DNA of 34,536 nucleotides from assembly GCA_009885945.1 (NCBI GenBank), contig VFJR01000007.1, positions 1-34,536 of the forward strand, in the 5' to 3' direction. Below the pieces are notes generated by a model. The model was given only the letters and a program-made list of their open reading frames with translations, was not told the DNA's origin and made no database searches. Below are positions 8,026-30,600 of the stretch, in pieces. The stretch comes from Anaerolineaceae bacterium. Lineage in GTDB: Bacteria; Chloroflexota; Anaerolineae; Anaerolineales; Villigracilaceae. Position 1 is the first letter of the stretch. Each line of letters opens with the position of its first letter. Made by a program: the position numbers and the translations under genes.

Positions 8026-8055
8026 ACAACAGACCGCCCTTCGGCGGTCTGTTGT
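8026..8055 (-). terminator. 13-bp perfect hairpin between two minus-strand genes
   Basis: Positions 8026-8038 and 8043-8055 are perfectly complementary, with a four-base loop. It follows the four-cysteine repeat gene by 16 bases. On the minus strand it is followed by CATTAAAATTAAAATG, which is AT-rich but not a clean T tract, so it may be a partial terminator or an mRNA-stabilising hairpin that lowers expression of the DUF2723 gene starting 14 bases later. Confidence 0.6.
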
Positions 8056-8071
8056 GAATTTGGAATATTAT

Positions 8072-9160
8072 CTATTTGCCAGTCGGCACATAAACGCCGG
8101 TAAACTGCGCAGGGGCACACGCCTGCCCATCCTCTGTTCTTGTTTCAAGCGCGATCCAGGCAGATGCTTGGTTAACCAAATCGCCTAAATAATAATAAAT
8201 AGTATTTTCTTTATCTGGGCGGGCGGCAAAACAAATCTCCCAAATACCTTCTTCAGGAGTCATTTCCCACAGAACAATTTCTTCCTGTTCGTAATGTAAA
8301 ACGTGACAACCTGGATAATAAATTAAACCAGCCCCATCTGGGAATGCTGCATTTTGAGTATTATCATATCCATCTACAAGATCATGATCTTCCATCAGCG
8401 TATCAGCAACGTGCAAATCATCTGACAATTGAGGCGCTTTGTAGAAAGTTTTAAATGTACAAATACCGCCTGCACCATAAGTACCTGAGCTAGTAATGCG
8501 AGTAGATGGAGGGGGCACCAATACCGTACCAACTTTAATCGGCGGTAAATTGGCGTTATCATTTTGGGTACTTCCGGGCAATTGAGTCACTTTACTGCCC
8601 GGCGCATATTCGCCTGTATAAACGGCAGCGGCACAAGCTAAGCCATCCAAATGAGTTGTGGGCAATTCAAGCCAAATCTGGTTATCTGTACCAGGATCAT
8701 CATAATAATGATAGACAATCAATTCTACGTCCGGGCGCTCTGCAAAGCAGACAGTCCAATCCCCGTCCGTTGTGCTGGCTTCGCGAACAACGTCACCAAG
8801 TTTATAATGTACGATATGACAGCCTGGCAAGTAAATATCACCTTCATAGCCAAAAGGAACTTCGCTTGAATCTTTAAGCGGCACTTCCACATCTATTGTG
8901 TTTTGCACCCCTACAATATTTTTATAATTAACATCAAAATTACATACGCCCGCCAGTGAATAATTTCCAGATTCTGTAATCGTGATCGCAGTAGGCTCAG
9001 AAAATAATACAGTAGATTCCTGAGGTGCAAAACCAGAACCCTGGTTTGCAAGGCTCATAAAATTAGTCAACGCCTGCACAACAGCAGAATCATTTTTGCC
9101 AACAATGACAAAAATTGTCACAGCCACAATCGCAAAAGCATATTGAAAATATTTTTTCAT
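8072..9160 (-). CDS. Secreted protein with two copies of an unrecognised four-cysteine domain
   Basis: I do not recognise this 362-residue family. It starts with a signal peptide or anchor (residues about 5-21 hydrophobic after KK) and a strong AAAGGAG ribosome site. The rest is two copies of one domain. Shared pattern: GxCxF, then PGCHxxHY, then CFAxRPD followed by a YYY-like run, then DGxACAxAxxTGxY. The cysteines are at about 73, 114, 138 and 176 in copy one and 234, 285, 310 and 348 in copy two; the last three are spaced almost identically and there are no others. Two disulfides per domain outside the membrane are likely. A proline-rich linker (about 192-218) joins the copies. It precedes the DUF2723 gene on the same strand. 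Confidence 0.8.
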   Translation of the reverse strand: MKKYFQYAFAIVAVTIFVIVGKNDSAVVQALTNFMSLANQGSGFAPQESTVLFSEPTAITITESGNYSLAGVCNFDVNYKNIVGVQNTIDVEVPLKDSSEVPFGYEGDIYLPGCHIVHYKLGDVVREASTTDGDWTVCFAERPDVELIVYHYYDDPGTDNQIWLELPTTHLDGLACAAAVYTGEYAPGSKVTQLPGSTQNDNANLPPIKVGTVLVPPPSTRITSSGTYGAGGICTFKTFYKAPQLSDDLHVADTLMEDHDLVDGYDNTQNAAFPDGAGLIYYPGCHVLHYEQEEIVLWEMTPEEGIWEICFAARPDKENTIYYYLGDLVNQASAWIALETRTEDGQACAPAQFTGVYVPTGK

Positions 9161-9247: not shown

Positions 9248-11818
9248 TTACTTCCTAAACACAATCGTATACTCCCGATCTAGTTGCAGATTAGTTGTGA
9301 TAGTAACTATGCCGCTTTTGATAACGGCATCAACGGGCAGCGATTCAACTGTAAAGCCCTTGGGAAGTCGAATGATTAATTCAAAAGGAATCGCCACAGT
9401 GCCCGGCTGCTTTTGAATCTTCAAATAATATACAAAATTACCCGTACCCGCTTGAGTTTGCACAACATCCAAAGGCAGCTTAAAATCAAGTTGAGTGGTA
9501 ATTGCCTGAGCAACAGGAACGACCTTCAGCACCCCAAACACTTGCATGCCCTGGCTTTCATCTTCCAAAATGTCCACCTTTGGCAACACATTTCTGCGAT
9601 TAAGCATCCAGTCTCCGGGAATAAATTGCGTAATCGAATCCACTAGTTTGGCATCCACCATTGTGTATACACGCATATAATCCCAATAACAATCATGAAT
9701 AGGATAAAAACTTTCCCCCAGTACTGTATAGCCATATAAGTGTACGCACGGAGTATTCGATTCTGTAGTATTCGTATGAGTAACGTTTAGTTGACTGAGC
9801 GGTGATTTTAAGTTTGTTAAATCAACGTCATAGGAGATTTCAGTGTTGATAACTGCATTCGTTTTATTAAAACCAATATTCGCGTCTACCACCATAATGA
9901 AATCACCGTTGCTTGGGCGTATGACCCCGTCCCATTTGCTTTTCTCCACAAAAGACATAACAACTGGGTTATCCATTTGCAGCAAAATATGACGCTCATC
10001 TAACATCTTTATCACAGTCAGAAATAATGCTTCCCAATCCACATCCCCATTTAATACTTTTCTCAACATCTCAGCAGAAATAGTGTTGAGAAAATTCTGC
10101 TTATTGATGCTTCCTTGTCCAGGTTTTTTCTTTTCTGCGCGCATATAAGAAATTACATTATCTGCACTAATGGGAACATCTACATCTTGCAAATGTACAG
10201 GTCCAATCACCCTTAAAATTTCGACCAGCATATGTTGATCAAATGCAATCACCCCATCGGCAGAATGATTAGTGATATACGAATATAACTGCTCGGCATA
10301 TAAAGCAGAGGTGGGATAATCAGTAAACCAATTTGAATCACGCAAAACCAGTACGGGACTATTCATATATTCCCTCAACTGCCAAGGCGCAACAGGGTAT
10401 GGCTTCGTCCAGTCATCCAATTCTCCAGTATCTTTAAAAAAGATGCTCCCTAATTTTCCATTTTGAATTAATACCGTTCCAACCGCTGTGAGAAACCCTC
10501 CTGTCGGACGCAGCTCATCTTCATTTTGGACAAGCAGTAAATAGGTTTTAGGACCCTCTTTGCTAGCCCCGGCAATTTGCGGAATCTCTACTGCAAGCGT
10601 CAAGGTATCATTAAGCAAAACAAGCGCAGGATCAATTTTATTTACTACAATATCGTACGTGAAAGGGGATAAGCAACTATCATCTATTTGTCCGCGCACA
10701 CTACGCACATTTTGCGTCTTTTTCAATATGCTTACAAATTGTGAGTTAGCCTTAACAAACATAGCAGTAATCGCAGATGGGCTTAATTTTATTTCATCAG
10801 AGCGGACTGCGTCCAAAATCGGCTTCCCCGCATCATATCCATCTAAAGTTATATCCAGCAGGTCAGATCCCATTCTCATAAAGGATGCGCTCGCGGCAAT
10901 ATCACAGCCATAGTTCGGAATCCATTTAAAGGCAGGAGCCGCCCAAATAAAGGGCGCAGTTTCTCTTTTTAAGTTTCCAAAATCTTCCTGCAAATTCTCC
11001 AGCAATGGGATTGCATTGTCAATGTCTGCCATACTGGGAGGCAGCTCTACAGCGTTACGTAATTCTTCTATATCTGTGCGCACTGCCATCGCCGCATTAT
11101 AAATGAGCCAGCTCTTTACTCCTAAAAACAAAAGAAGCGCGAGACCAGCCCAGCGAAAAACAGACTTTCTGTTTATGGAGGTGTTGGCAAATAATCGCTT
11201 TTTATTTTCTTTTTCAATAGGTACAACAGGCGTCGCGTTTTCATCTTCTTGATTCACGGCAACTGCATCCGAAATGCTCTCTGTTGTTTGCGCAATGGAT
11301 AAATAACTCTCACGCGTTGCAATTACATCCATCAACCTTTGCAAGCCTTTACGGTGCCAGTCACTGATGGTGCTAATTGGCGTTATATCAGATTCTGCGC
11401 TTACCAAAGCATAGTGCGCAACCTCAGCCTCTGTTAAATCAGCGGCGGGCTTTCCATACACAAAAAGTAAAATACTGTGATCCATACGCCCCCATGCCTC
11501 TTGAAACGAAGCCGGGATTGGCGCACCAAACAAAATAGGAGAAAAATACTTCGCTGCCAAAAAACCAAACTCGCTCCAGCGCGCATCTAACCTAACCCCG
11601 CGCTTGGGAGGCAAAGCAGGAAGCATGGTTTTAAATAAATCTGCCAGCGCCGCTAAAATTTGCTCGCCGTGGGTTTTATCTACAAAGCCTGGATTATTTT
11701 TTACAAAATCCTGCACAAAAAGGCTTTTTGCCCAAGGGTGCGAATTCAAACGATCTGCCTTGTGGATATTATCAAGAACCTTTTTTAATTTTGCAATATC
11801 AGAATCTGTTTTTTTCAT
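9248..11818 (-). CDS. DUF4012 membrane-anchored surface protein
   Basis: An 856-residue protein. Residues 1-210 are a soluble, presumably cytoplasmic region of unknown function; a single membrane segment lies at about 222-240; the remainder is outside the membrane. The DUF4012 signature LLLVQNEDELRPTGGF is at about 427-442, followed by SIFFKDTGELDDW. DUF4012 proteins are common in Chloroflexota and Actinobacteria and are often near polysaccharide genes, but their activity is not known. The ATG at 11818 is preferred: the upstream extension of the frame would run through the SRP RNA gene. A TATAAT on the minus strand (11834-11829) lies ten bases before this ATG, so the leader would be very short. 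Confidence 0.88.
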   Translation of the reverse strand: MKKTDSDIAKLKKVLDNIHKADRLNSHPWAKSLFVQDFVKNNPGFVDKTHGEQILAALADLFKTMLPALPPKRGVRLDARWSEFGFLAAKYFSPILFGAPIPASFQEAWGRMDHSILLFVYGKPAADLTEAEVAHYALVSAESDITPISTISDWHRKGLQRLMDVIATRESYLSIAQTTESISDAVAVNQEDENATPVVPIEKENKKRLFANTSINRKSVFRWAGLALLLFLGVKSWLIYNAAMAVRTDIEELRNAVELPPSMADIDNAIPLLENLQEDFGNLKRETAPFIWAAPAFKWIPNYGCDIAASASFMRMGSDLLDITLDGYDAGKPILDAVRSDEIKLSPSAITAMFVKANSQFVSILKKTQNVRSVRGQIDDSCLSPFTYDIVVNKIDPALVLLNDTLTLAVEIPQIAGASKEGPKTYLLLVQNEDELRPTGGFLTAVGTVLIQNGKLGSIFFKDTGELDDWTKPYPVAPWQLREYMNSPVLVLRDSNWFTDYPTSALYAEQLYSYITNHSADGVIAFDQHMLVEILRVIGPVHLQDVDVPISADNVISYMRAEKKKPGQGSINKQNFLNTISAEMLRKVLNGDVDWEALFLTVIKMLDERHILLQMDNPVVMSFVEKSKWDGVIRPSNGDFIMVVDANIGFNKTNAVINTEISYDVDLTNLKSPLSQLNVTHTNTTESNTPCVHLYGYTVLGESFYPIHDCYWDYMRVYTMVDAKLVDSITQFIPGDWMLNRRNVLPKVDILEDESQGMQVFGVLKVVPVAQAITTQLDFKLPLDVVQTQAGTGNFVYYLKIQKQPGTVAIPFELIIRLPKGFTVESLPVDAVIKSGIVTITTNLQLDREYTIVFRK

Positions 11819-11828
11819 ATGCCACGTT

Positions 11829-11834
11829 ATTATA
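11829..11834 (-). promoter_or_regulatory. Putative -10 box of the DUF4012 gene
   Basis: TATAAT on the minus strand, ten bases before the ATG at 11818. No convincing -35 is seen. It sits 11 bases from the -35 of the divergent SRP RNA promoter, so the two promoters would share the same short stretch of DNA. Confidence 0.45.
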
Positions 11835-11845
11835 CTAAACTCTAA

Positions 11846-11874
11846 TTGACGCCCCCCACTAGATAGAGTATCCT
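11846..11874 (+). promoter_or_regulatory. Sigma-70-type promoter of the SRP RNA gene
   Basis: TTGACG (11846-11851), a 17-base spacer, and TATCCT (11869-11874). Transcription would begin near 11881, which agrees with the folded 5' end of the RNA. The -35 matches five of six consensus bases and the spacing is ideal, as expected for a stable RNA gene. Confidence 0.8.
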
Positions 11875-11881
11875 TGCACAC

Positions 11882-11985
11882 GTTCGGGCAGGGCCGGCGC
11901 GGCGAAGCCTTTCGAATCCCGCCAGGATCGAAAGATAGCAACGGTAAGGAAGAGTTTTCGGGTGCCGCCGTTCCCCTGCCCGGGC
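11882..11985 (+). ncRNA. ffs: Signal recognition particle RNA, small bacterial type (4.5S)
   Basis: The RNA core of the signal recognition particle, which binds Ffh and directs membrane proteins to the translocon. The ends pair (GGGCAGGG at 11886-11893 with CCCTGCCC at 11974-11981, extended by G-U and G-C pairs), and inner arms GGCGCGGC and GCCGCC pair next. The tip is the conserved domain IV: CAGG (11923-11926), a three-pair stem ATC/GAT, a GAAA tetraloop (11930-11933) and AGCA (11937-11940), then ACGGTAAG. The usual tip is a CC/GG stem with GGAA; here both sides of the stem differ in a compensated way, which supports a real RNA. A T-rich stretch follows. No Alu-like domain is seen, so it is the short form. 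Confidence 0.93.
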
Positions 11986-12021: not shown

Positions 12022-12360
12022 ATGCTATCCACACCAATCAAATACCTCATCGCACTTGTCATTGGCATCAGCCTTGGACTGCTATATGGCTGGGCAATAG
12101 ATCCAGTTGAATTTATAGATACAACACCAGAAACTTTACGCGCCGATTATCGCGCCGATTACGTACTCATGACTGCGGAAATATACAACAGCGATGGCAA
12201 CCTCAGCCTCGCCGCGCAAAGACTGGCAGTATTGGGCAGTCAACCTCCAGCTGAGATTGCCGCGCAGGGCTATCAATCTGCATTAGAGTTTAAATTTTCA
12301 GACGCCGATATAGCCCTGATCCAAAGACTGATGAGCTCGCTTCAAGCTGGAGGAAATTAA
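12022..12360 (+). CDS. Small membrane-anchored protein, paralogue of the next gene
   Basis: A 112-residue protein with one N-terminal membrane segment (about residues 6-24) and a soluble helical remainder. It shares with the following gene the pattern G-x-x-LGL-x-Y-x-W, then P-V-x-x-x-D-x-TP-x-x-LRAD, followed by a helical segment (NSDGNLSLAAQRLAVLG here, SNGDIERARARLSLLG there), so the two arose by duplication. The function is unknown. The ATG at 12022 is chosen because the protein family begins there; no Shine-Dalgarno is present, but TACAAT (12010-12015) ends six bases before the ATG, suggesting a leaderless or nearly leaderless mRNA. Its stop overlaps the start of the next gene by one base (TAATG). 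Confidence 0.75.
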   Translation: MLSTPIKYLIALVIGISLGLLYGWAIDPVEFIDTTPETLRADYRADYVLMTAEIYNSDGNLSLAAQRLAVLGSQPPAEIAAQGYQSALEFKFSDADIALIQRLMSSLQAGGN

Positions 12361-13199
12361 TGAATCGCGCCAATCCATTAATGACTCTCATCGCGCTTCT
12401 AGCCGGGCTCGGGCTTGGTCTGGCGTACTCATGGGGAATCTCACCTGTTAGTTACACCGACTCCACCCCGAACATTTTACGCGCCGATTTCAAAGACCAG
12501 TACCGCACGATCATCGCCGCTGCCTTTGCATCCAACGGAGATATTGAACGTGCACGCGCGCGCTTATCATTACTTGGAGATAACGATTCGTTTCAGGCTT
12601 TAAGCGCTCAAGCGCAACAAATGCTGGCTGTGGGTCGCCCTTATGAAGATGTAGAGCAAATTGTTCAACTTGCATCTGCGTTGCAAGGGCAAAAAATATT
12701 TGCATCCCCCACTTCGCCATCATCCTACTCAGCGCAATTTACCGCCTTGCCCACACTAACACCTCTTGTCAACGCTGCGCTTGTTGATTTAACTACAATT
12801 CCACAATCAACTCCACTGGTAATTACCACAACAACAAGCCGCCCCACACAGACTCTTAGTCCTACACCCGGATTGCCTCTTATCCTTATTTCTCAGGAGG
12901 AAATTTGCAATTCAGAATTGAATAGTGGATTAATGCAAATCACCATTTTAGATGAAAGACGCAGACAATCCCCCGGGATAGAGTTAACTATCACATGGGA
13001 CGGCGGCGAGGAACATTTCTTCACAGGATTAAAGCCAGAGTTAGGCAACGGCTATGCCGATTATCAAATGACTGAAGGTGTTACCTATTCACTAAAGCCC
13101 GAAAATGGCAACCCAATTCCAAATATTATTGCACCTGCTTGTCCTGCTCCAAATGGTTCTTTCTTAGGCGGAATCAAATTTATTTTTCAAAAACCCTAA
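12360..13199 (+). CDS. Membrane-anchored protein with Thr/Pro linker and C-terminal beta-rich domain
   Basis: A 279-residue protein. Residues about 7-25 are a membrane anchor, and about 30-120 resemble the whole of the upstream paralogue (TPNILRADFKDQY, SNGDIERARARLSLLG). A threonine-, serine- and proline-rich linker follows (about 120-180), then a C-terminal domain of about 100 residues with two cysteines (EEICNSE and APACPAP), probably a small beta-sandwich carrying a disulfide outside the membrane. The ribosome site GGAGG is seven bases ahead of the ATG, and the start overlaps the previous stop (TAATG). I do not recognise a function. A bidirectional terminator follows. Confidence 0.75.
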   Translation: MNRANPLMTLIALLAGLGLGLAYSWGISPVSYTDSTPNILRADFKDQYRTIIAAAFASNGDIERARARLSLLGDNDSFQALSAQAQQMLAVGRPYEDVEQIVQLASALQGQKIFASPTSPSSYSAQFTALPTLTPLVNAALVDLTTIPQSTPLVITTTTSRPTQTLSPTPGLPLILISQEEICNSELNSGLMQITILDERRRQSPGIELTITWDGGEEHFFTGLKPELGNGYADYQMTEGVTYSLKPENGNPIPNIIAPACPAPNGSFLGGIKFIFQKP

Positions 13200-13204
13200 T
13201 CAAC

Positions 13205-13238
13205 AAAAAAGCAGCCACAATATTGTGGCTGCTTTTTT
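13205..13238 (+). terminator. Bidirectional intrinsic terminator
   Basis: A perfect 22-base palindrome (13211-13232) flanked by a run of A on the left and T on the right. It lies between convergent genes and works in both directions, ending the gene pair at 12022-13199 and the LCP gene on the minus strand. Confidence 0.9.
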
Positions 13239-13259
13239 GTTTAACTTATTTATGCTTGA

Positions 13260-14729
13260 TTAAAACCCAGCAGGAAGTTTTGCCACCCAATCGTTACCAA
13301 GGCGAATTTCAATATCAACAGTAGCGGCAGGATCAGGTTTAATAATGATCTGAACATTTGCCGCAATCCCCATTTCTGCGATCAAATACCGAAAAGTATA
13401 CAACTTGGGGTTATACATAATGATCAGCGTTTGATCATACGTACGGTCGGCGGGTCCAATTTCAACAACTTGAACACCCTTGCTAATTAAATAATTACCG
13501 GTGCGCTGGTCAATTCCCTGCGTAAAGGTACCATTTAAAACGCGCACACGCGCCGCATCTGCCTGCATCAAGGTGACAGGGTCGCCGCTTGCCATTGGGG
13601 TAATTGCCCCGCCAGCAAAAATATCATCGCGCAAAATCGTAATTTTATCCATAATGGGCTTCAACACAGCCGCTTTTTGACCATTGAGCGTGGTGTTTTC
13701 AAAAGTTACCATGGTGTCGTCAATCACGCCGCTCTTAATGCTTTCTGGGGGAATTTGCTGTAACAACACAGCCAACTTCAACGCTTCGTCAAAAGCCATG
13801 TTGGTGCGTAAACCCGCTTGAGCCTCGGCATATATCTGCGGTGCAAGCTGCATCATGTTCGAAAAATTTTCTGTTGAAAATACCTGGTCGCGCAATGCGC
13901 GAATCACCAATTGCTGACGTATGGAGCGATCTACATCGCCGCCCGCTGTGTAACGCTGACGCGCATATGCAAGCACATCATAACCCCACAGAGTTTGACA
14001 ACCCTTATCTAAAACTCTCGGTTTTTTATCGCCAACAGGATCAATCCGAATTCTGGCAGGTATACAAATATATAAGCCGCCCATTGTATCAATCACTTCT
14101 TCAAACGCGCGAAAATCAATTTGCCCATAATAATGAATCGGCACGCCCAGCAATTGCTCAACTGTTTTCACAGCCAATCCTGGTCCACCGCCCGGAAGTT
14201 TATCGCCCTCACCCAAAGCATAAGCGGTGTTAATACGGCTATAGCCATAGCCAGGGATATTCACCCACAAATCACGTGGAACAGATAACATACCCGCTTG
14301 TTTAGTGACGGGGTCAATGGTAAAAAGAATCATCGTATCAGAACGCGGCGGTCCTTCGTTGGTAATATAATCACGATAATCCAAACCAATAAATAAAATA
14401 TTGACGCGGCTGGCTCCATCCCACTGGGGATAGGATACATCAGGCGCTGAAATAACAGGAGTGGGCAAATCCACAGGAGCGATAGGTGTACCTTCAGCAT
14501 TTAATGTAAACCCACCATTAGCACCGCCAACGCCACATTTTGCTGGAACCGTACCCGGCAATTTTATTGTATTTAAAGTCAAACAAGTGACAAGGTTATT
14601 AACCGCAATAAAACCGCTAACAGCCAGGGCTATGCCAACTCCCCAAAAAATCATATTGCCAACAGAGGGTCGTTTGATTTTTATAGGAGGTAATTTTATT
14701 TTTTTAAATAATGCTGTAATTTTATTCAT
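13260..14729 (-). CDS. LytR-CpsA-Psr (LCP) family protein with C-terminal LytR_C domain
   Basis: LCP enzymes transfer glycopolymers such as teichoic acids, capsules or arabinogalactan from a lipid carrier to peptidoglycan outside the membrane. The 489-residue protein has a basic N-terminus, a membrane anchor (about 26-48), and an LCP domain (about 105-285) with NILFIGLD, PPRSDTM, SVPRDLWVNIPG and YARQRYTAGGDVDRSIRQQ; the arginines and aspartates of the pyrophosphate site are present. Near the C-terminus VRVLNGTFTQGI begins a LytR_C domain. The ribosome site AAAGGA lies ahead of the ATG. It is the last gene of the VanW-Trm112-HEAT-LCP row. The acceptor polymer is unknown; the glycan operon at the left of the window is a candidate source. 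Confidence 0.93.
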   Translation of the reverse strand: MNKITALFKKIKLPPIKIKRPSVGNMIFWGVGIALAVSGFIAVNNLVTCLTLNTIKLPGTVPAKCGVGGANGGFTLNAEGTPIAPVDLPTPVISAPDVSYPQWDGASRVNILFIGLDYRDYITNEGPPRSDTMILFTIDPVTKQAGMLSVPRDLWVNIPGYGYSRINTAYALGEGDKLPGGGPGLAVKTVEQLLGVPIHYYGQIDFRAFEEVIDTMGGLYICIPARIRIDPVGDKKPRVLDKGCQTLWGYDVLAYARQRYTAGGDVDRSIRQQLVIRALRDQVFSTENFSNMMQLAPQIYAEAQAGLRTNMAFDEALKLAVLLQQIPPESIKSGVIDDTMVTFENTTLNGQKAAVLKPIMDKITILRDDIFAGGAITPMASGDPVTLMQADAARVRVLNGTFTQGIDQRTGNYLISKGVQVVEIGPADRTYDQTLIIMYNPKLYTFRYLIAEMGIAANVQIIIKPDPAATVDIEIRLGNDWVAKLPAGF

Positions 14730-14741
14730 TCATGATCCTTT

Positions 14742-15314
14742 TTAACCGGGCTTAATATATACCATATCCAAGCCCAGCCGTTCCAAGCCTTCTTTTGCCC
14801 AGTATTGAAGCAGGGACGATTCTTCTTCCATCACTTTCATCATCAATGGGATTGCGCGGTGATCGCGGATTTCGGCAAGCGCGCGCAAGGCTTGGATTCT
14901 AGCGGATTGCCGCGCATCTTTCAACACAGAAAGCAGATTCAACACCGCAGGGCTTCCTATTACACTGAGAGCATTACCTGCCAACTGCGCCACAAGCGGG
15001 TCTACATCACTTAATAAAACACATAATGCGGGAACTGCTTTTTCATCTGGATGCGCATGGAACGCAAGCGCTGTAGCGGCACGCACTTCCGGCGCTGAGT
15101 CGCTGAGCAGCGGAATCAAGTGTACGGTTAAAGAATGAGGCGCTAATGCGAGGGTTCGAATCGCCCACCAGCGTTGATCCGCGTTGGGAGATCGAGTCAG
15201 ATTCAAAAGCGCTGGAATTGCTTCATCATTTAATGCCGCAAGCTTTATCGCCGCATTTTCAGCGCGAACTTCATCGCCGCTGATCAGTTCTGCCAGCAGA
15301 CTTTGTAAAGACAT
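14742..15314 (-). CDS. HEAT-repeat protein
   Basis: A 190-residue protein made of about five HEAT/PBS-lyase-like repeats, seen as recurring segments such as AALNDEAIPALLNLTRSPNADQ, WWAIRTLALAP, DSAPEVRAATALAFH and DPLVAQLAGNALSVIG. Such repeats are protein-binding scaffolds and give no direct function. The ATG at 15314 overlaps the stop of the upstream Trm112-like gene (TAATG), so the two are translationally coupled; upstream in-frame codons have no HEAT character. A partner role in the envelope cluster is possible but not shown. Confidence 0.85.
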   Translation of the reverse strand: MSLQSLLAELISGDEVRAENAAIKLAALNDEAIPALLNLTRSPNADQRWWAIRTLALAPHSLTVHLIPLLSDSAPEVRAATALAFHAHPDEKAVPALCVLLSDVDPLVAQLAGNALSVIGSPAVLNLLSVLKDARQSARIQALRALAEIRDHRAIPLMMKVMEEESSLLQYWAKEGLERLGLDMVYIKPG

Positions 15315-15532
15315 TATTTGGCAGGCGGAGGAATCGGCAGTGCATCTGCCGAGGTGCCCATCCATTTATCGCCTTCGTCAATTAACATAACGGGGATGTC
15401 ATCCACGATGGGGTATTTGCGGGCGCAGTCCTGGCAAATGAGCCAAGTATCTTTATGAAGTGTAAGCTTGCCGTCTTTTTCGCGCACACAATTTGGGCAA
15501 CGTAAAATTTCTAATAAGTCTTTGCTAATCAT
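15314..15532 (-). CDS. Trm112-like small zinc protein (UPF0434/YcaR type)
   Basis: A 72-residue protein with the Trm112/YcaR fold pattern: DLLEILRCPNC at the start, a second CQDC pair (Cys12, Cys15, Cys33, Cys36, a likely zinc site), then YPIVDDIPVML. The eukaryotic Trm112 activates several methyltransferases; the role of bacterial members is not established. The ATG at 15532 has GGAG six bases upstream; a TTG four codons earlier overlaps that ribosome site and is rejected. It is coupled to the HEAT-repeat gene. Confidence 0.9.
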   Translation of the reverse strand: MISKDLLEILRCPNCVREKDGKLTLHKDTWLICQDCARKYPIVDDIPVMLIDEGDKWMGTSADALPIPPPAK

Positions 15533-15582
15533 GAGTTTCTCCAATCGGCGGGTATTGTACCATTTTGATTATAAATGGCATT

Positions 15583-17475
15583 TTACGAAGATGGGTCAAT
15601 ACACAACCCGCGTTTCTTGGCGATCGTTTGCGGGTCATCCATTCCAGAACCATATTGACAAATAGCCTGCCAAGGTTGGTAATGAGTTTGAAAATTGTCT
15701 GTAAAATATACCTGACCATTTCTATAGACCGTGCGCGTCACTACAATATCAGCACCATTGGCAGAATGTTCCACTTCTTTTATTTCAGTCTTTTTAAACT
15801 CGGGGTTTTCTTCAAAGCGCGGGCTGGGAGGTCCTACCACGTTAATCGGACCCGTTGTATCCCATGAAACTGTTCTACCATCAGAGGTGGAATATAACTT
15901 CCAGGTTAAAGAACGCGCGCTGACATCCATATATGTTTCCATCAATAACCAATAAGGAGTGTCATTGGTAAATTTAAAATCAACCAAGGGAAAATAGACT
16001 GTTGCATCCATGCCCGCCAATCTTGGGTCGACTGCACCACTGGATGTCATTTCATAATAAGAGACTCGATAGGCGTGAGAGTGTCTTTCTGCAACAGGAA
16101 AACCCGCTTGAAAGACGGTGCGGAATAAAGTTGTGCTTACTTGGCAAACCCCGCCACCCACCCCTTTAATGGTGCGATTGCCATAAATAATTAAAGCCTC
16201 TGCAAAACCATTATCCAAACTAACATCGCCCATTACTTCCCCCATAGAGAAGGTAGCTCCAGGCGCAACCATCACACCATGAAAACGCGCCGAGGCAGTT
16301 TGCACATTTTGAATGCGCGCTTCACTGGAGCCATAAAAAAATGTTGTTGTCTGTCCAACCAATTCTGTAATACCGAATTGTTCGCCACTGGCGTTATCGG
16401 GAATGGCGGGTTGTTTTTCGATAACCGTCAAAGGAATATTATGCTCGCCGCGCAATAACGCATCGTTCACTGCGCGGATACTGGCTTCTACATCCAAAGT
16501 TCTGCCCACCGCTGAGGCGCTGATCGGCTCAAGCTGGCGGGTTGAATCATTGAATATAAAACGCGCATCTACAGATGTTCTATCTATTTGTGATTGAAGA
16601 TTCAATAACAACAGACGCAGGGCATTTTCATCCAGCTTTAATTGAACCGCTGCAATGCCATCTACTTCTACATTTTGCACTACCAACATACTAGCAACGG
16701 ATTGCTGGTCATACATCCATGGACCAGGATCGCCCGCGCGATAATTAGGCACAGCCAATTGCATAGCTTGACTCAAAATTTGCTGTGCCTGCAAAGTCTG
16801 CGTAGAAACATCAAAGATGCGCGGAGAAACTTCTTGAATGACCAATTGCACTTCACCATCGCGAAACGATTGCAATTGTGCACCTAGGTAGATCATGGTG
16901 GCGTCCAAACTTAGTGAACGCCCCACTTGCCCCGGCAAGGCGATCACATTTGCCCCGTCAATTTTTAATGTGGCTTCGGCAACTTGCTGATTAATTTGCA
17001 AAGCAAGGTTTTGCAGATATGTGTATGCCACACGTTGATCAAATACGATCACAGGCGAGATATCCAACCCGCTTCGCGCGCGCACCTGTGAGTTGAGCGC
17101 CGCAAACGGACCGCCAGCCCGCCCCCACTGATACGCCGCTACTGCACTAGCAGAAGGATCAAACGCCATACCCAATTCCACCGGCGCAGCAACCCAAATT
17201 TTTTCGCCATCTCGAAAAACAATCCTGCCCGTCAACGGAAATGAAAGAGTCTGGCTTAGTTTTAAAGTAGCTTCTGTGGGAGATAAACCAGAAACATCTA
17301 CACCCGCCACTGTAACACCGGGAAATATTTTGCCAGCATAGATCAACTGATATCCCACTGTCCATGCTGTGGCGATAAAAACAAACATTAACACGCCTCC
17401 GATCAATGCCGCGAGAATTTGCGGCAGGATCGGATTATTATGCGGGTAACGGTACGTAAATGAGGAAGTTGTCAT
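15583..17475 (-). CDS. VanW family protein with peptidoglycan-binding-like domains
   Basis: A 630-residue protein anchored by one membrane segment (about 17-40). The outer part begins with PGVTVAGVDVSGLSPTEA, the typical opening of PG_binding_4 domains, of which two or three appear to follow. The VanW domain lies at about residues 400-540, with ATFSMGEVMGD, GVGGGVCQVSTTLFRT and ERHSHAYRVSYYE. VanW proteins occur in some vancomycin-resistance clusters and widely in Gram-positive-type bacteria and Chloroflexota; their activity is uncertain, but a role in the cell wall is supported by the domains. The ATG at 17475 is preceded by TATAATCCTATCT, a -10 box seven bases from the start with no Shine-Dalgarno, so the mRNA is probably leaderless. 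Confidence 0.9.
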   Translation of the reverse strand: MTTSSFTYRYPHNNPILPQILAALIGGVLMFVFIATAWTVGYQLIYAGKIFPGVTVAGVDVSGLSPTEATLKLSQTLSFPLTGRIVFRDGEKIWVAAPVELGMAFDPSASAVAAYQWGRAGGPFAALNSQVRARSGLDISPVIVFDQRVAYTYLQNLALQINQQVAEATLKIDGANVIALPGQVGRSLSLDATMIYLGAQLQSFRDGEVQLVIQEVSPRIFDVSTQTLQAQQILSQAMQLAVPNYRAGDPGPWMYDQQSVASMLVVQNVEVDGIAAVQLKLDENALRLLLLNLQSQIDRTSVDARFIFNDSTRQLEPISASAVGRTLDVEASIRAVNDALLRGEHNIPLTVIEKQPAIPDNASGEQFGITELVGQTTTFFYGSSEARIQNVQTASARFHGVMVAPGATFSMGEVMGDVSLDNGFAEALIIYGNRTIKGVGGGVCQVSTTLFRTVFQAGFPVAERHSHAYRVSYYEMTSSGAVDPRLAGMDATVYFPLVDFKFTNDTPYWLLMETYMDVSARSLTWKLYSTSDGRTVSWDTTGPINVVGPPSPRFEENPEFKKTEIKEVEHSANGADIVVTRTVYRNGQVYFTDNFQTHYQPWQAICQYGSGMDDPQTIAKKRGLCIDPSS

Positions 17476-17482
17476 AGATAGG

Positions 17483-17488
17483 ATTATA
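17483..17488 (-). promoter_or_regulatory. -10 box directly ahead of the VanW gene (leaderless start likely)
   Basis: TATAAT on the minus strand is followed by seven bases and the ATG, so transcription would begin at or next to the start codon. No convincing -35 is visible. Confidence 0.5.
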
Positions 17489-17715
17489 CCTTTGCAAATT
17501 AGAAGTGGATTAGAGACGAGATACGGAGTCAAATAGTTCCCTTATAAAGGTGTACCGTCAATATCCTCAACAGACATAGGCTTCTAAAAGTCTTATTATG
17601 AATTTTCAAAAATTTCGAACACCTCTTAATTATAAAAAAGCCTATAATGTGTAAAATAATGCTTATTCAAAATATTTTGCATAAGCCCTACAGATGTAAA
17701 ACAAAAGGAGATATT

Positions 17716-18330
17716 ATGAAAAACCGTAGTTCTGTTTTGTTTATCTATTTGTTATTTATTGTAGCCGCCAGCCTTGCCTGCCAGACACTCAGCGGTACCA
17801 CTACGCAGGCACCCCCAGAAGAATCTCAGCCTCAATCGCAAATCGCAAAACCAACTGCCAATCAGAATTCTGAAACTACTAGCGACCTTGTCGTTTTTGT
17901 AGATAAAAATAATCTGGCTCAATTTGAAGTGCCCGGCGATTGGGAATATTCGCAAAGCGATGTGGAAGGCGGTTACGTGGATTCATTTGCATCACCAGAC
18001 GGCAATGCTTTGATGGAAAATTTTGTATACGATGATGGCACCAGCTTTACGGGCGGTCAAAATGGTAAGGCGGCTTTATATCTCTTACACAGATATTACA
18101 GCGCTACCGGCAAAGAAGGTGATATCAAAGTAATCAGTGATGCGGTGCAAGCCGACGGCAGTGAGCGCCTGGTGTGGACCTCCCGTTCTGGCGGCTTCTC
18201 TGGCGTTTCATTCTTTGAAGTACGCAATCGAACTACCTTCCTAATGCTCACCGGCAAATGGGTCAATGAAACTGAAGAAACATATCTACCGATCGTGAAT
18301 CACACCATTGAAACCTATCGGATTCCGTAA
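17716..18330 (+). CDS. Lipoprotein of unknown function
   Basis: A 204-residue protein with a lipoprotein signal peptide: basic start, hydrophobic core and a cysteine at residue 22 in AASLAC. A low-complexity Gln/Thr/Pro/Ser tether follows to about residue 55, then a compact domain of about 145 residues (FEVPGDWEYSQSD, YVDSFASPDG, RLVWTSRSGGFSG, YLPIVNHTIETYRIP). This resembles secreted PsbP/DUF1795-like domains in outline, which I cannot confirm. The ATG at 17716 has AGGAG at ideal distance; an earlier in-frame ATG does not. TATAAT at 17643-17648 may be its -10 box. It is expected on the outer face of the membrane. Confidence 0.8.
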   Translation: MKNRSSVLFIYLLFIVAASLACQTLSGTTTQAPPEESQPQSQIAKPTANQNSETTSDLVVFVDKNNLAQFEVPGDWEYSQSDVEGGYVDSFASPDGNALMENFVYDDGTSFTGGQNGKAALYLLHRYYSATGKEGDIKVISDAVQADGSERLVWTSRSGGFSGVSFFEVRNRTTFLMLTGKWVNETEETYLPIVNHTIETYRIP

Positions 18331-18340
18331 ATAAATATTT

Positions 18341-18389
18341 AAAGCACAAAAGGACACGGCTTCTAAGAGACCGTGTCCTTTTGTGCTTT
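18341..18389 (+). terminator. 19-bp inverted repeat between convergent genes
   Basis: Positions 18341-18359 and 18371-18389 are perfectly complementary around an 11-base loop. The outer part of the stem is A/T-rich (AAAGCACAAAAGG), so the T residues of the 3' arm may act as the tract in either direction. It separates the lipoprotein gene from the membrane-protein gene on the minus strand. Confidence 0.75.
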
Positions 18390-18395
18390 AGAAAG

Positions 18396-18788
18396 TTACA
18401 ATTTAGAGTGCCAAATCTGTGCCAACGCCTTGCTCACTGCCCACGCGCAGATAAACCCCACGACGACGCCTATTACCAAACCAACCCACATCCCATACTG
18501 ACTCGCCCAAGTCCCCGACATGCCGCCCAAATAGGTTGCGACGAAAATGGTAACAATTAAACCGAGCAGGTCAATCAAAACATTGCGCATAAATTTTAAG
18601 CGCGTGATTTGTTTTTGCTTGTAAGGTTGAATATGTTTTTGGATGATAAAGTAAAACGCGAAGCCAAGACCTAAGATTAAGAGGATGCTACCTATCCAAG
18701 GTAGGATGCTTGGGGAATAGATGATGGAAAATATCAGAGCTATAAGCAGAGCAATGGAAATGTAAGGGCGGGATTTTGCAAAAGACAT
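18396..18788 (-). CDS. Small four-helix membrane protein of unknown function
   Basis: A 130-residue protein that is mostly membrane: hydrophobic segments at about 9-26, 28-49, 67-90 and 97-121, with a basic cytoplasmic loop (HIQPYKQKQITRLKFMRN) between the second and third. No family is recognised. It lies 86 bases downstream of the candidate immunity gene on the same strand and may be co-transcribed with the toxin module; it is also conceivable as an immunity or accessory protein. Coding potential is supported by the coherent transmembrane pattern and by the terminator immediately after the stop. Confidence 0.65.
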   Translation of the reverse strand: MSFAKSRPYISIALLIALIFSIIYSPSILPWIGSILLILGLGFAFYFIIQKHIQPYKQKQITRLKFMRNVLIDLLGLIVTIFVATYLGGMSGTWASQYGMWVGLVIGVVVGFICAWAVSKALAQIWHSKL

Positions 18789-18874
18789 TATTTTATCTTT
18801 AAGGAAATGGAGTCGCTATTAACATTGGGTATTCTGCACAAACTTTTTCGGATGGCATTAATTAAAATCGTTGA

Positions 18875-19483
18875 TCATTCAACAATCCCCAAGCGCTTTC
18901 CCATATCCTGATTAATATAATCCACCAACCGATTGAATAACGCGATGGATGCTTCGTCGCTTCCATTCACCGTCACTGTAATGACGTATTCTTTCACTTG
19001 CGCCGCCATGGTGCAGGCTCTGTTCGTCATGTTAATATTTGTTGGTTTTCCACAGCCAGAATCGTACTGATCCGCAATCTCCAAGGCATGTAGCTGGCCA
19101 TTCTTTGTTCGTTCTTCAATTCCAATTGAAAGATACCTATTGAACCAATATCCAGCTCGTTTTTCTGTAGGGGAACGAATAAAGTCAATTAAAACCTGAG
19201 CATGATTATCCCATTCTGCCCCCCCTATCCCCTGCTCAAAAGTGGATGGGCTGGATGTTTTATAAATAGCAACATCTTTTTCAACCTTTCCCGCAGGAAA
19301 CAACTCCTTTGGGAAAGTTATATCCCATACTGTAAACGAGCGTTTAGGGGCGCAAATATTAAAGGGGCACAAACCTATCATGTACACAGGCAAAACAAAT
19401 ATCATAAACAGATAACACGATAATATTATCCCAATCAAACTTAATATAACAAGAGTCATGGTTCTCCTCGTGGTTTTTTTCAT
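18875..19483 (-). CDS. Membrane-anchored protein; candidate immunity gene
   Basis: A 202-residue protein with an N-terminal membrane segment (about 9-33, after KKTTRRT) and an outer domain with several cysteines (GLCPFNICAP, DSGCGKP, NRACTMAA). The last part, VKEYVITVTVNGSDEASIALFNRLVDYINQ, looks like a strand-helix unit. I do not recognise the family. Its ATG overlaps the stop of the Bacterial toxin 44-like gene by four bases (ATGA). Polymorphic-toxin immunity genes lie directly downstream of the toxin, so this is the best immunity candidate. An unrelated secreted protein is the alternative. Confidence 0.65.
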   Translation of the reverse strand: MKKTTRRTMTLVILSLIGIILSCYLFMIFVLPVYMIGLCPFNICAPKRSFTVWDITFPKELFPAGKVEKDVAIYKTSSPSTFEQGIGGAEWDNHAQVLIDFIRSPTEKRAGYWFNRYLSIGIEERTKNGQLHALEIADQYDSGCGKPTNINMTNRACTMAAQVKEYVITVTVNGSDEASIALFNRLVDYINQDMGKRLGIVE

Positions 19484-20289
19484 GGCTTTTCTTGCCCATC
19501 AGACTGGTCAAACCTATCTGCCGGGTATGTGTTCGGCTGGGATTGCACGTCAAACGGCGGCATAAAACCTTCTGGCGGCGGTTGAAGAGAGTTCAAGACT
19601 TCATCGGTCAAGGCGTTTAGGAAAGCCTCTTCAGTAATGTTGCCTCTAGTGTTTTCATACAAATCATAGCCAAAATTTACGGCGTTCGTGTCATACGGGT
19701 CTTCAAACCAATTCCACCAATTCTCACCCTTGAGAGTGCCTTCCCATATCTCTAAACCGCCCCCAGCAATTTTGGACATCCAGCGCGGAACGCCCGCATC
19801 TGCAGCAGTTACCCCAAAAATTATATTGCCAGCAGTGGAATAATCCACCCATCGGCACGCACCGCTATTGCTACATAGAATGTGGGCCGAGTCTTTATCG
19901 CCGGGTCCTGTTCTAAATAATTGTTGCATTTTCAACTTAATATCCCATCTTCCACCCCCGGTGTTAAGTGTAAGGAAATCGCTCGCCAATTCGCTAAACC
20001 AGAACGCAGAAAAAACCGAATTGATTGGCATTTGTATTCCAGGTATTAGCAGTTCATAGGGCTGTAACTGCCTCTGGTCATTGTAAAGCCTCATGTCTTC
20101 CAATTCAGGGCTTACTATATTGCGGTTCATTACCAAAGACATCCAAGACGTCAAATCGTATTGCTTTTGTCCCGCTACCTGAAGTGCTTGCTCTTGCAAA
20201 TAGTCTTGATAACTTTGTTGCGGATGCATCTGTGCCCACTCCGCCATTCTGTTGATAGGCTTGATACTCAGGCGTAGAAACATGTGCAT
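19480..20289 (-). CDS. C-terminal part of a broken secreted protein, with a Bacterial toxin 44-like domain
   Basis: An intact frame of 269 codons; the first ~15 are out of register with the ancestral protein, which continues from the next fragment upstream. Residues 112-215 contain GRWDIKLKMQQLF, VDYSTAGNIIFGV, WMSKIAGGGLE and FEDPYDTNAVNFGYDLYE. This order (WDIK, then N-I-x-FG, then an AG motif, then fDDPyD and a closing LY) is what I know from the Bacterial toxin 44 (Ntox44) domain at the C-termini of polymorphic toxins. The assignment is from memory of the family pattern. If the frameshifts are real it would lack its export part and probably be inactive or intracellular. A tail rich in Pro and acidic residues follows. 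Confidence 0.65.
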   Translation of the reverse strand: MHMFLRLSIKPINRMAEWAQMHPQQSYQDYLQEQALQVAGQKQYDLTSWMSLVMNRNIVSPELEDMRLYNDQRQLQPYELLIPGIQMPINSVFSAFWFSELASDFLTLNTGGGRWDIKLKMQQLFRTGPGDKDSAHILCSNSGACRWVDYSTAGNIIFGVTAADAGVPRWMSKIAGGGLEIWEGTLKGENWWNWFEDPYDTNAVNFGYDLYENTRGNITEEAFLNALTDEVLNSLQPPPEGFMPPFDVQSQPNTYPADRFDQSDGQEKP

Positions 20290-27617: not shown

Positions 27618-30600
27618 TTATTTAGATTTACTGGATAATTCTTCCACCAAGTTATTCACCTGTTTTAAACGATCTGATAATACTTTTATGACGCTCATAC
27701 TCACATCCGGGCGGTCATGCAATAGTGAGTTAAATGCTTTTTGAGAAATGCACAAAACATGCACATCATTGACTGCGGTTAAATTGGCTACACGCGGCTC
27801 ACGGTTAATCACAGACATTTCGCCTACATACTCGCCCACATCACGGCGCGCCAATTCCACTTCATTGTTATTAGCATCTACGGTGGTTACTTTTACCTGC
27901 CCAGAAACGATCACATACAACATGTCACCTTGCTCGCCTTCTTCTGCAAATACTTCGTCGCTAGCAAAAAAAGATTCCTCTGCGATCAGCGCTACTTGCT
28001 TTAAATCTGCGGGGGAAAGTTTTTCAAATAAAGGTACGCGCTTAAAAAACAGAATACGATCCATTAAAGTTAAGGTGTGATAGTTTTCCATTGAATCTCC
28101 TACAGGTTGGGCGGCAATACGTACAAGGGCATCATGATCTTCAAATAATACTTTATCCAATTGAGGCGCAAACAGACTGTTATTAATTTTTCTTAAAGCA
28201 TACGCTGTGCAGGCACGTACCCAAGGGTCGCGGTCTGCAAGCAAAGTTTTCCATATATCAGGATCAACTACAGTAGGCTCTTCAATTTCTTCCCACAGGC
28301 TCATCAGCGGGCGTACACTGTTGCGCCACTTTTCACTCAACTCATCTAAAATTTCCAAGCCTAAGGCTCTTTGCGATGTATCACTCCAACGCAAAGTATC
28401 CACCGCCAAAGACATTGCTTCGCGGTCTTCCATCAATCCAATCGCCTGTAATGCCCGAATTCCCGACTCTTTGGATTTTTCATGCAATTGATTTGCTAAA
28501 AATTCGCCCGCATCTGTCTTGACCTCAAGCCTGACCTGGCGCATTTGGTTTTCGTGGCGTTCCGCGCGTTCTACTGCCATACGAATATAAGCTTCCATCG
28601 GTTTTAATGGAGGAGGCGGCAATTCATAAAGAGCAAGCAATGCACCATCTTCATATTCAAGTTGCATTAATACGTTAAGCGTCGGCTGAATCGCTTCGGC
28701 TCCAATACTACCCAGCAAGGATGCGCTCGTTTCTTGTATGCGTGTATCATGAGAAGAAAGCGCTATAATTAAATGAGAAATAGCATTACTGGGATTAATC
28801 TGCACCAAAGATTTAAGTATGGCGCGGTGAATATCAGGAAATTCTGCTTGGTCTTTAATTTCGTTTTCAAGAAAGACAAAAAGCTCGCTGTCTTTTAATT
28901 CGCCAAGAGCGCCAATCGCTGCAATGCGTGCAGAGGGCTCGCCCATCGCCGCTGTGCTTCGTAAAAATTGTTTTGCCTGTGTAAGAATTAAATTTTCGAT
29001 AGCGCCAGTGATTGGCAATTTGAGCAGTGCCACAGCCGCACGCGTACTCACTTGCGGATCTGGGTCATCAAGCATCGGATGTAGATAATGTAAAACGCCA
29101 GGCGCAAAGCCAGCAAGATGCGAAAGCGTGGAAACTGCTTCGGTACGCACATCAGGCTCAGGGTCAGAGAGAGAGGCGGCGATATCCAATAAAGCAGTAG
29201 TGGCATTTGAGGTAGCTAAAGCTCTTAAAGATTCAACGCGTACTATTGAATCTGAATCGTGTAATGATTGCACCAGCAAACTATGTACGCCTTGCGTAGG
29301 CAAATAACCAAGAATTTCAACGGCAACGCGCCGAATGGCGGGGTCTGGGTCATTCAGCGCCTTAATAATTTTTGCGAGCGCAGAAACATCATTTTGCAAA
29401 CCCGTGAGGGATCCCCCTTCTGTGTAGAATAATTGCGGTTTGCCTGCGCGTAAAGCATCCAAAAGAGCTTCGTTATATCCACGGCGTGCTTTCCAAATGG
29501 CGCTGGTGCATAAAACTGCCGCAATAAATCCAATCCACGCTAACTGCGCAGGTGTTAAAAACCGATCGCCTACAATGAGCAAACCGCCTGCAATAAATGT
29601 ACCTGCCTGCCCAGGCACGCCATCAATAAACGCACGCACTTGATCACGCCGTTCGGCAGGGGCTACATTGAACATAGCTTGATAGGCTGGGTCTGCCATG
29701 CCAGAAAGCCATAAGGTTTGTATAAAACGAAATGAAATTATGACTAGGAAAGCAGGAGAAATAATCATCACGCCAAATCCGCCAAGATAAATGAGCGGGA
29801 GCAAAAGAAGCGCGGTCATAATTCCAAACCGTACAAAAAAACGATTTGCTATAAATAATGATGCTAAAAAAGCGGCGGCTGTACTGACACCGGTAAATAC
29901 ACCAAGGAAGGATGCCAATCCAGCTTCATCGGGAAAGTTTTCTGTTGCTGCGCGTGAAAATGGTAATGAAATGGAAAAATAAAGCACCGAAAATAAAATA
30001 GCCGCAAGGGATACTGAAACCAACAAAGGTGAATTGCGCACATATTGAAAACCACGTCGAATTTCTTTAGTAACAGAGGGGGCTTTTCGTTTTGATTTTT
30101 TGCTAAAGAATTGTGTGACTTGTGAATTTTTAAGTAATGTCATCACCAGAAAAAATGTGATGAGCATGGCGCCTGACCAAATATAGATTAGATTATCGGT
30201 GCCAATTACAGCCACCGACGCCCCTGTCAAAAAACCGCCAATGACTTGCCCTAAAATGCGGCTGGCATTAAAAATAGGAAAAAGACGTTTTGCTTGGCGA
30301 GCATCACAAACAAACCCCGCTACGCCCCAAACTAGTAAACCGATCAATGAGTTGAGAATTTCCTTACCAAGCCATAGGATTGGGTACACCCAGATTAAAT
30401 CTGTAATCAGGGCGATCCTTGCTCCGATAAGTACAATTGTAAGGATGAGAGGCAGGGTAATATAAAGTATAGCGCGCGGCACGCGGCTGAGGAATGCAGA
30501 AACCCCAAAAGATGTGAGCATATTGGTAAGCCCTAAACCCAAAAACATATAGGGCAGGTAATCTACACCAAAACGCTTGATAAATAAAGTTTCAATGCCA

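Follow-up and report, generated by a model that had tools for sequence, protein, structure and literature searches.

The gene and its neighbours

The window, a stretch of 34,536 nucleotides from a contig of an Anaerolineaceae bacterium, contains a gene for a small protein with two similar cysteine-rich domains. An earlier note had described these as an unrecognised tandem four-cysteine extracellular domain. The gene lies between a DUF4012 gene and a gene for a TMEM260-like glycosyltransferase, and the features of the locus are as follows:

9248..11941, minus strand: DUF4012 gene, directly upstream (PF13196 E 1.7e-30, and synteny)
8072..9160, minus strand: gene of the two-domain protein, stop codon included (open reading frame, ribosome-binding site, homologues)
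9068..9160, minus strand: signal-peptide-like hydrophobic leader, about residues 1-31 (read from sequence and alignment)
8591..9001, minus strand: copy A, residues 54-190, with C73, C114, C138 and C176
8075..8518, minus strand: copy B, residues 215-362, with C234, C285, C310 and C348
8031..8050, minus strand: perfect 8-bp hairpin AGACCGCC-GAAG-GGCGGTCT between the window gene and the glycosyltransferase gene
6522..8120, minus strand: TMEM260-like glycosyltransferase gene, downstream (PF11028 E 2.2e-27)
5929..6438, minus strand: RfaH/NusG-like antiterminator gene, below the NCBI RfaH cut-off
293-5612, minus strand: Kdo and ABC polysaccharide-export gene set, headed by the RfaH/NusG-like gene

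The window protein has 362 amino acids (ATG start, codons 8075-9160), and an AAGGAG ribosome-binding site lies at 9173-9168, 7 nt 5' of the ATG. The likely start of the glycosyltransferase gene is the ATG at 8012, 59 nt past the stop codon of the window gene; the hairpin between the two genes has no T run and was not listed by the terminator scan. The leader has the look of a signal peptide, and several homologues read VWA or AWA at this leader in the alignment. Secretion is consistent with this look, as was the extracellular location proposed earlier.

Each copy of the domain spans about 140 residues. A BLASTP comparison aligned copy A to copy B with 33% identity over 161 columns (88.6 bits, E 9e-28), which is beyond chance and bore out the proposed duplication. 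All eight cysteines of the protein fall within the two copies. Copy A has C2-C3 and C3-C4 spacings of 24 and 38 residues and copy B of 25 and 38, as had been reported, and the motifs PGCHxxHY, CFAxRPD and DGxACAxAxxTGxY each occur twice. The C1-C2 distance differs, being 41 in copy A and 51 in copy B, which contains an insert.

The export set comprises kdsA-, kpsF/kdsD- and kdsB-like genes, a gene for a Wzt-like ABC ATPase and two methyltransferase genes; positions 293-6438 on the minus strand thus carry a Kdo polysaccharide-export gene set in a Chloroflexota genome. Upstream, beyond the DUF4012 gene, are LCP and VanW genes. Near the domain genes of relatives we found genes for Wzz/GNVR-AAA_31 (loci L029 and L034), LysM (L029 and L031) and low-molecular-weight phosphatase (L034) proteins, and the EPS cluster described for Bifidobacterium longum 105-A includes a DUF4012 gene (PMC5412050; also PMC6744442). 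An envelope-polysaccharide setting of the locus is well supported. The DUF4012 protein contains a hydrophobic segment ahead of its DUF4012 domain, as read by eye. The idea that it is an LCP-like polymer ligase was rejected: hhalign gave no profile relation to LytR-CpsA-Psr (PF03816; 0.3 to 0.4%, from alignments of 37 and 14 sequences, both shallow).

Other genes were recorded in passing. An ORF at 19480-20289 of the window matched PF15607 (Ntox44, bacterial toxin 44; E 4.1e-07), and the genes around it are small and mostly have no confident Pfam match. At 27618-30710, a 1030-aa protein adjoining murJ gave sub-cut-off matches to HEAT-like (NblB-type) and CRP-type families. Downstream of the cassette in L029, a very large ORF (12146-18952) contains SdrD_B, DUF11 and prealbumin-like repeats, and its product is likely a surface protein.

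Distribution of the domain and its link to a TMEM260-like enzyme

The window protein matched no Pfam family at E <= 1, IPT/TIG included, and searches of NCBIfam and of PDB sequences returned no meaningful match; two PDB profile matches, with E 0.13 and 1.2, looked like chance. The 18 members of alignment A2 had no ZU5, GPS, GAIN or IPT/TIG Pfam match. At the level of sequence, the domain was thus rightly called unrecognised, and no significant match to a known family was obtained.

A domain profile search gave matches in 36 of 152 genomes of the organism's own GTDB family. Of 61 near relatives, counting the own genome, 11 have the domain, as do 10 of 396 genomes of the class, all ten belonging to the same family. 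When 400 genomes of the order were searched with a broader profile (A7), 44 matched: 31 belong to the own family, and the other 13, with weaker matches (E 8e-11 to 9e-4), to four other families; at the level of the phylum, 12 of 400 genomes matched, ten in the own family and two weakly. In a scan of genome contigs, the single protein as query found no match and profile A3 found six loci. All six named records come from metagenome bins, four of which carry the label Anaerolineales bacterium, one Anaerolinea thermophila and one Chloroflexi bacterium.

Homologues have either two copies, in frames of about 340-400 residues, or one copy, in frames of about 160-230 residues. The domain tree placed the A copies in one group (99/95), grouped the B copies weakly (61/0) and separated the one-copy forms by a supported branch (97/93). 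A single duplication may suffice for this tree, the root position of which is not fixed. In one one-copy relative (L013, ORF 1267-1860), the leader ends in LAGC, a lipobox-like sequence that suggests a membrane-anchored version. Two further loci, L136 (G579:C35) and L137 (G634:C41), each encode several secreted-looking proteins in a row, about 250-390 aa long, whose ends weakly match the C-terminal half of the domain; no glycosyltransferase gene was present within the stretch read.

We examined the gene neighbours of the domain, and DUF4012 - domain gene - TMEM260-like gene proved to be the usual order. A PF11028 gene lay directly downstream on the same strand at 34 of 40 domain loci (36 genomes), with 166-240 nt between the two domains. 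DUF4012 was found within 4 kb at 32 of the 40 loci, and 27 had both neighbours in the order of the window. For this count, two matches of one protein were joined, and all 53 DUF4012 matches were used together with 84 PF11028 matches with E up to about 9e-18; weaker matches were omitted, as was the slightly stronger one of G265. Two of the six enzyme-less loci are at contig ends (G535:C30 and G035:C32). These two genomes were each counted twice, apparently for one gene split over two contigs, the second half of which lies beside the enzyme on a different contig of that genome. The other four (G023:C41, G484:C31, G428:C35 and G479:C509) are not at contig ends. Among the six named loci, L029, L032 and L034 contain all three genes, L033 has no DUF4012 gene, L031 has no enzyme gene, and L030, cut upstream, shows neither.

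Seen from DUF4012, 32 of 53 loci had a match to the first domain profile nearby, and eight more had the enzyme nearby and no such match. Six of these eight contain a small secreted-looking protein in the slot of the domain gene (L095, L097, L098, L100, L101 and L102). Searched with profile A2 among the ORFs of 20 loci, L095 (1.6e-5), L097 (9.8e-5) and L100 (2.9e-4) matched, L102 (0.012) and L101 (0.047) were marginal, and L098 did not match; these E-values refer to small sequence sets. Profile A7 included L095, L097, L100-L104, L023 and L028 among others, which match it by construction. Of the remaining two loci, L096 has no slot protein, and L099, the second locus of the organism's own genome, has none between its genes. 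In the own genome's second TMEM260-like/DUF4012 locus (L135, G000:C136:6900-12500), a downstream ORF (1232-2449) encodes a 405-aa FecR-domain protein with a weak terminal match to the domain (E 1.8e-4) that has the same four cysteines.

The cassette arrangement was also found at L141 and L146, which belong to a different family (f13) of the order. Because four of the 40 loci and three DUF4012 loci (L142, L144 and L145) have the domain gene without the enzyme, the link to DUF4012 may matter as much as the link to the enzyme. The idea that the domain follows the glycosyltransferase rather than DUF4012 was dropped, as three DUF4012 loci hold the domain gene on the other side.

The enzyme of the window scored 96.4 bits against PF11028, for which the curated cut-off is 24.2, and matched the solved human TMEM260 (9rql_A) with E 2.3e-27 over residues 60-497 of 532. 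Its DGGDLITA...AHPTGYP aligns with DSGELITA...AHPPGYP of the human protein. Human TMEM260 (GT117) is described as a protein O-mannosyltransferase that selectively serves IPT Ig-like domains (PMC11292533), and the window enzyme may have such an activity.

PF11028 matches were found in 92 of 152 genomes of the family, and we used two enzyme trees to locate the linked ones. In a tree of 47 proteins, for which some loci had been chosen because they were linked, all 33 linked enzymes fell in a clade of 37 (98/99), together with three unlinked enzymes and one of unknown status. A tree of 73 proteins (35 loci added, partial sequences dropped, quick method with SH-aLRT only) placed all 29 linked enzymes in one clade of 37 rows with a branch support of 99; the clade also held one enzyme with a divergent slot protein, six unlinked enzymes and one at a contig end. 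On the other side of that branch were 36 rows labelled unlinked. The 73-protein tree lacks several linked enzymes (for example G027, G376, G428, G450, G461:C50, G501, G529:C58 and G535) and the weaker PF11028 matches; four of its 'linked' labels refer to divergent slot proteins used in the profile, and that of L192 rests on a weak match. At L191, the slot contains a secreted-looking ORF for which no match reached significance (E 0.073).

The six unlinked enzymes inside the clade are L061, L065, L071, L084, L163 and L164, and five of their six genomes have a domain gene elsewhere (G511, G000, G479, G503 and G484). L061 (G536) has neither a slot protein nor a domain gene detectable with profile A2, and lies inside the clade in the 73-protein tree and outside it in the 47-protein tree. 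Among the 36 rows outside the clade, L055, L082 and L083 have membrane-anchored slot proteins; when the upstream ORFs of nine 'unlinked' enzymes were inspected, these three held divergent relatives of the domain, L056 had no upstream sequence, and the others gave no match. The statement that enzymes outside the linked clade have no slot protein was therefore dropped.

With 29 linked enzymes in one clade, particular enzyme branches and the domain family travel together. No other evidence for a working partnership is as strong as this co-occurrence, and we regard a functional link between the domain protein and the TMEM260-like glycosyltransferase as very probable. Adjacency through operon history, with the domain protein acting as an adhesin or structural surface protein, would leave room for the members without the enzyme (G023:C41, G484:C31, G428:C35 and G479:C509), for the weak match in the FecR-domain protein of L135 and for the weak matches in tandem arrays such as L136, where no enzyme was seen in the stretch read. 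We consider this explanation quite improbable, since the enzyme adjoins the domain gene at 34 of 40 loci and divergent members hold the same slot, even in another family.

Conserved residues, predicted fold and the cleavage motif

To describe the conserved residues we used 52 aligned domain copies. They represent the closer family, since copies below 60 bits, and hence the divergent members, were excluded; L012, L085, L091-L094 and L117 were dropped as duplicate or cut loci. C3, C4, one glycine, the tryptophan and the tyrosine of the last strand are found in all 52 copies. C1 and C2 occur together in 45 copies and are missing together in seven, and neither occurs alone. In six of these seven, a cysteine pair occupies two different columns; L013, the seventh, has cysteines elsewhere. 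Those six copies are closely related in the domain tree, and their alternative pair may reflect one switch. Because cysteines are gained and lost in pairs, disulfides C1-C2 and C3-C4 can be proposed. PGCHxxHY is typical of the two-copy proteins, and the wider core reads CF...W...C...G.Y.

The positions of T168/T340 and T182/T354 are Ser or Thr in all 52 closer copies; neither is kept in divergent members, so there is no universal acceptor site, and none can be named with confidence. The earlier note had taken the strong motif conservation as a sign of a defined fold and of a binding surface. The fold part agrees with the model described below. The binding surface did not find support, because the strictly kept residues are mostly Cys, Gly, Trp and Tyr, which look like fold residues.

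An AlphaFold2 model of copy A, built from 14 domain rows, had a mean pLDDT of 86.4 and a pTM of 0.81. The full-length model was poorer (mean pLDDT 61.2, pTM 0.61; best ten-residue blocks 80-86). A Foldseek search of the PDB with copy A returned the FIIND of NLRP1 first (7crw_A; prob 1.00, E 4.6e-3), MYDGF, an unrelated beta-sandwich, at rank 2 (prob 0.91), and the AnkG ZU5 (6m3p_E; 0.99), ankyrin-B (4d8o; 0.96) and the BAI3 GAIN domain (4dlo_A; 0.94); no match had E <1e-3. VIA-align gave the CD97 GAIN domain (Z 8.7; 124 residues, 4.1 A), the ankyrin-B ZU5 (Z 8.6; 122 residues, 3.8 A), the CELSR1 GAIN domain (Z 8.0; 130 residues, 4.0 A) and BAI3 (Z 7.8; 128 residues, 4.3 A), where Z below 8 may, by the tool's own warning, reflect merely a common arrangement. 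Rows 1-17 were all ZU5, GAIN or FIIND domains, the last at Z 6.1, and row 18 was MYDGF at Z 6.0 (94 residues, 3.5 A). The full-length model matched ankyrin first in both programs: ZU5A-ZU5B in Foldseek (E 4.8e-3, prob 0.38, TM 0.16) and ankyrin-B in VIA-align (Z 8.2; 113 residues, 3.4 A). The predicted model thus has the ZU5/GAIN strand arrangement, at weak statistics. PF00791 matched in none of the 152 family genomes, yet also in none of 14 controls, so that this negative carries no weight.

Divergent relatives of the domain were found in four loci:

L055, 401-1354: membrane-anchored relative
L082, 714-1388: membrane-anchored relative
L083, 2078-2788, minus strand: membrane-anchored relative
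L199, 1450-2364: membrane-anchored relative

In L055, L082 and L083, which form one branch of the enzyme tree, the relative lies directly upstream of the TMEM260-like gene and consists of an N-terminal hydrophobic segment and a domain that reads ICF...W...CG...H-L-[ST]-[IL]-F-A-L. The fourth, L199, was found by search, and the short stretch around it showed no enzyme of the PF11028 type. All four carry H-[LF]-[ST] (HLS, HLT, HLS and HFS) followed by x-F-A-L. In hhalign, the four relatives aligned to A7 with a probability of 90.5%, with Cys, Trp, Cys and the last strand in register, and to the narrower 52-copy alignment with 20%. A Pfam search of L055, L082 and L083 gave no ZU5 or GPS match.

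From the predicted structure and these relatives, we consider a ZU5/GAIN-type fold class probable. The domain may thus be a true homologue of ZU5/GAIN domains. Convergence on a common beta-sandwich by an independent fold family would fit the missing sequence match to PF00791 or any Pfam ZU5, GPS or GAIN family, in the membrane-anchored relatives as well, and also fits the Foldseek E-values and the low hhalign probability obtained with the 52-copy alignment. The uniform ZU5/GAIN/FIIND identity of the first 17 VIA-align rows, up to Z 8.7 though nearly tied with MYDGF at the end, and the high probability obtained with A7 speak against it, and convergence appears unlikely. A domain with no sequence match and a ZU5/GAIN-like predicted structure is best described as a sequence family that is new, with a fold that is probably known; the label 'unrecognised' therefore holds for sequence, and at the level of the fold gives way to a weak placement near ZU5/GAIN/FIIND.

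Some domains of this class cut themselves. CARD8 and NLRP1 are cut at SF/S and PIDD at HF/S, the slash marking the cut (PMC3210808). CARD8 and NLRP1 have no His at -2, but another His is required (PMC3210808, PMC8081665), and a C-terminal CxH motif has been described for the ZU5 superfamily (PMC3482391). The H-[LF]-[ST]-x-F-A-L of the four membrane-anchored relatives fits both the GAIN/latrophilin motif HLTNFAVL and HF/S in PIDD. At the equivalent of the cut site, the window protein reads Y/T or F/T (T182 and T354); Ser/Thr is in place, and the autoproteolysis motif is absent, with no His at -2 and no CxH. The ZU5 domains of ankyrin are not known to be cleaved, so a missing H-[LF]-[ST] lowers the case for an autoprotease and leaves that for the fold unchanged.

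If each copy did cut itself just before T182 or T354, after the aromatic residue, several features would be explained. Ser/Thr occupies the cut position in 52 of 52 copies, preceded by Tyr in 20 and Phe in 13. The distance from C4 to this residue is six in 39 copies and seven in 13, and that from TTC to the Thr of HLT in latrophilin is likewise six. Copy A of L041 reads HFT, and all four membrane-anchored relatives have the H-[LF]-[ST] motif. In addition, residue 137 of the model aligns to residue 976 of rat NLRP1 (7crw_A), which would bring model residue 129 (T182) near the NLRP1 cut F968/S969, if the alignment is gapless (PMC8081665). Nevertheless, 51 of 52 copies, those of the window protein included, have a residue other than His at -2, and a cut would release only a few residues before the linker or the C-terminus. 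Cutting of the window protein is unlikely, because His at -2 is rare, CxH is absent and the Ser/Thr is lost in divergent secreted members. We regard an autoproteolytic role of the two copies as very improbable; cutting would be more plausible in the membrane-anchored relatives.

Proposed role and comparison with known systems

We propose that the protein would be exported and would fold as two ZU5/GAIN-type beta-sandwiches, each with two disulfides (C1-C2 and C3-C4), and that it may be the dedicated partner of the adjoining TMEM260-like GT-C glycosyltransferase, in a cassette of DUF4012, domain protein and TMEM260-like enzyme that would belong to an envelope-polysaccharide locus. The partnership would most simply be that of enzyme and acceptor: a polyprenyl carrier would supply the sugar, and the membrane enzyme would attach it to Ser/Thr in beta-strands of the exported domains, much as human TMEM260 adds mannose to IPT beta-sandwiches. 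Once glycosylated, the protein would have its role at the cell surface. As a whole, this explanation is tentative, somewhat short of an even chance. The role of glycan acceptor, taken by itself and by analogy to the human enzyme, is possible, though on the doubtful side.

A different division of labour is a real possibility, though one we would not bet on: the enzyme and DUF4012 may act on a secreted glycan that the domain protein binds, presents or organises, itself remaining unglycosylated. The EPS-type genes near relatives (Wzz/GNVR-AAA_31, LysM, low-molecular-weight phosphatase), the downstream Kdo genes, Wzt-like ABC ATPase and RfaH-like gene of the window, the DUF4012 gene of the B. longum 105-A EPS cluster (PMC5412050) and the glycosidase beta-sandwich modules among the lower VIA-align rows all agree with such an accessory role. 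The linkage, however, is specific to TMEM260-like enzyme branches and does not extend to EPS genes generally, and proteins are the substrates of the closest enzyme whose activity is known (PMC11292533).

The enzyme-acceptor reading can be extended to a bacterial TMEM260-type protein glycosylation with one dedicated ZU5/GAIN-like acceptor in the same cassette. In some lineages this acceptor would be secreted and disulfide-braced, and in another membrane-anchored with H-[LF]-[ST]. Such a system would parallel, in prokaryotes, the way animals O-mannosylate Ig-like receptor domains, and would feed an envelope-polysaccharide pathway. In this extended form the reading is rather unlikely. Among the papers listed by our searches, judged partly by titles, we found no bacterial substrate of TMEM260-type enzymes. 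A small secreted protein beside particular enzyme branches offers a concrete candidate partner that is easy to express, and with it one can test whether TMEM260 relatives in bacteria glycosylate folded beta-sandwich domains like the human enzyme. Bacteria would also gain a disulfide-braced, apparently non-cleaving ZU5/GAIN-like family whose membrane-anchored cousins keep the cleavage motif.

Among known systems, the ZU5, GAIN and FIIND domains (ankyrin, CD97, BAI3, CELSR1, NLRP1, CARD8 and UNC5b) are the nearest folds of the single-copy model. As in ankyrin ZU5A-ZU5B, to which the Foldseek match is weak (prob 0.38), the copies stand in tandem, and a cysteine pair probably links the strand before the conserved Trp to the strand leading into the last one, as in this group. 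Unlike these domains, the domain of the window has no sequence-family match and a four-cysteine pattern of its own, and the protein has no His at the cleavage motif, is bacterial and presumably secreted, and has no receptor, death or CARD domain attached. The ZU5-superfamily domains of bacterial polymorphic toxins and large surface proteins share the extracellular, bacterial use; as described, they belong to large multidomain proteins and have a C-terminal CxH autopeptidase motif (PMC3482391), whereas the window protein is small and standalone and has no CxH. The DUF4012 (PF13196) proteins of EPS clusters are represented here by a neighbour of the domain, not by a relative. Unlike the IPT substrates of human TMEM260, the window domain has no IPT match, is bacterial and is a putative target of glycosylation. 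The neighbouring enzyme is a homologue of human TMEM260, the described substrates of which are likewise extracellular beta-sandwich domains (PMC11292533).
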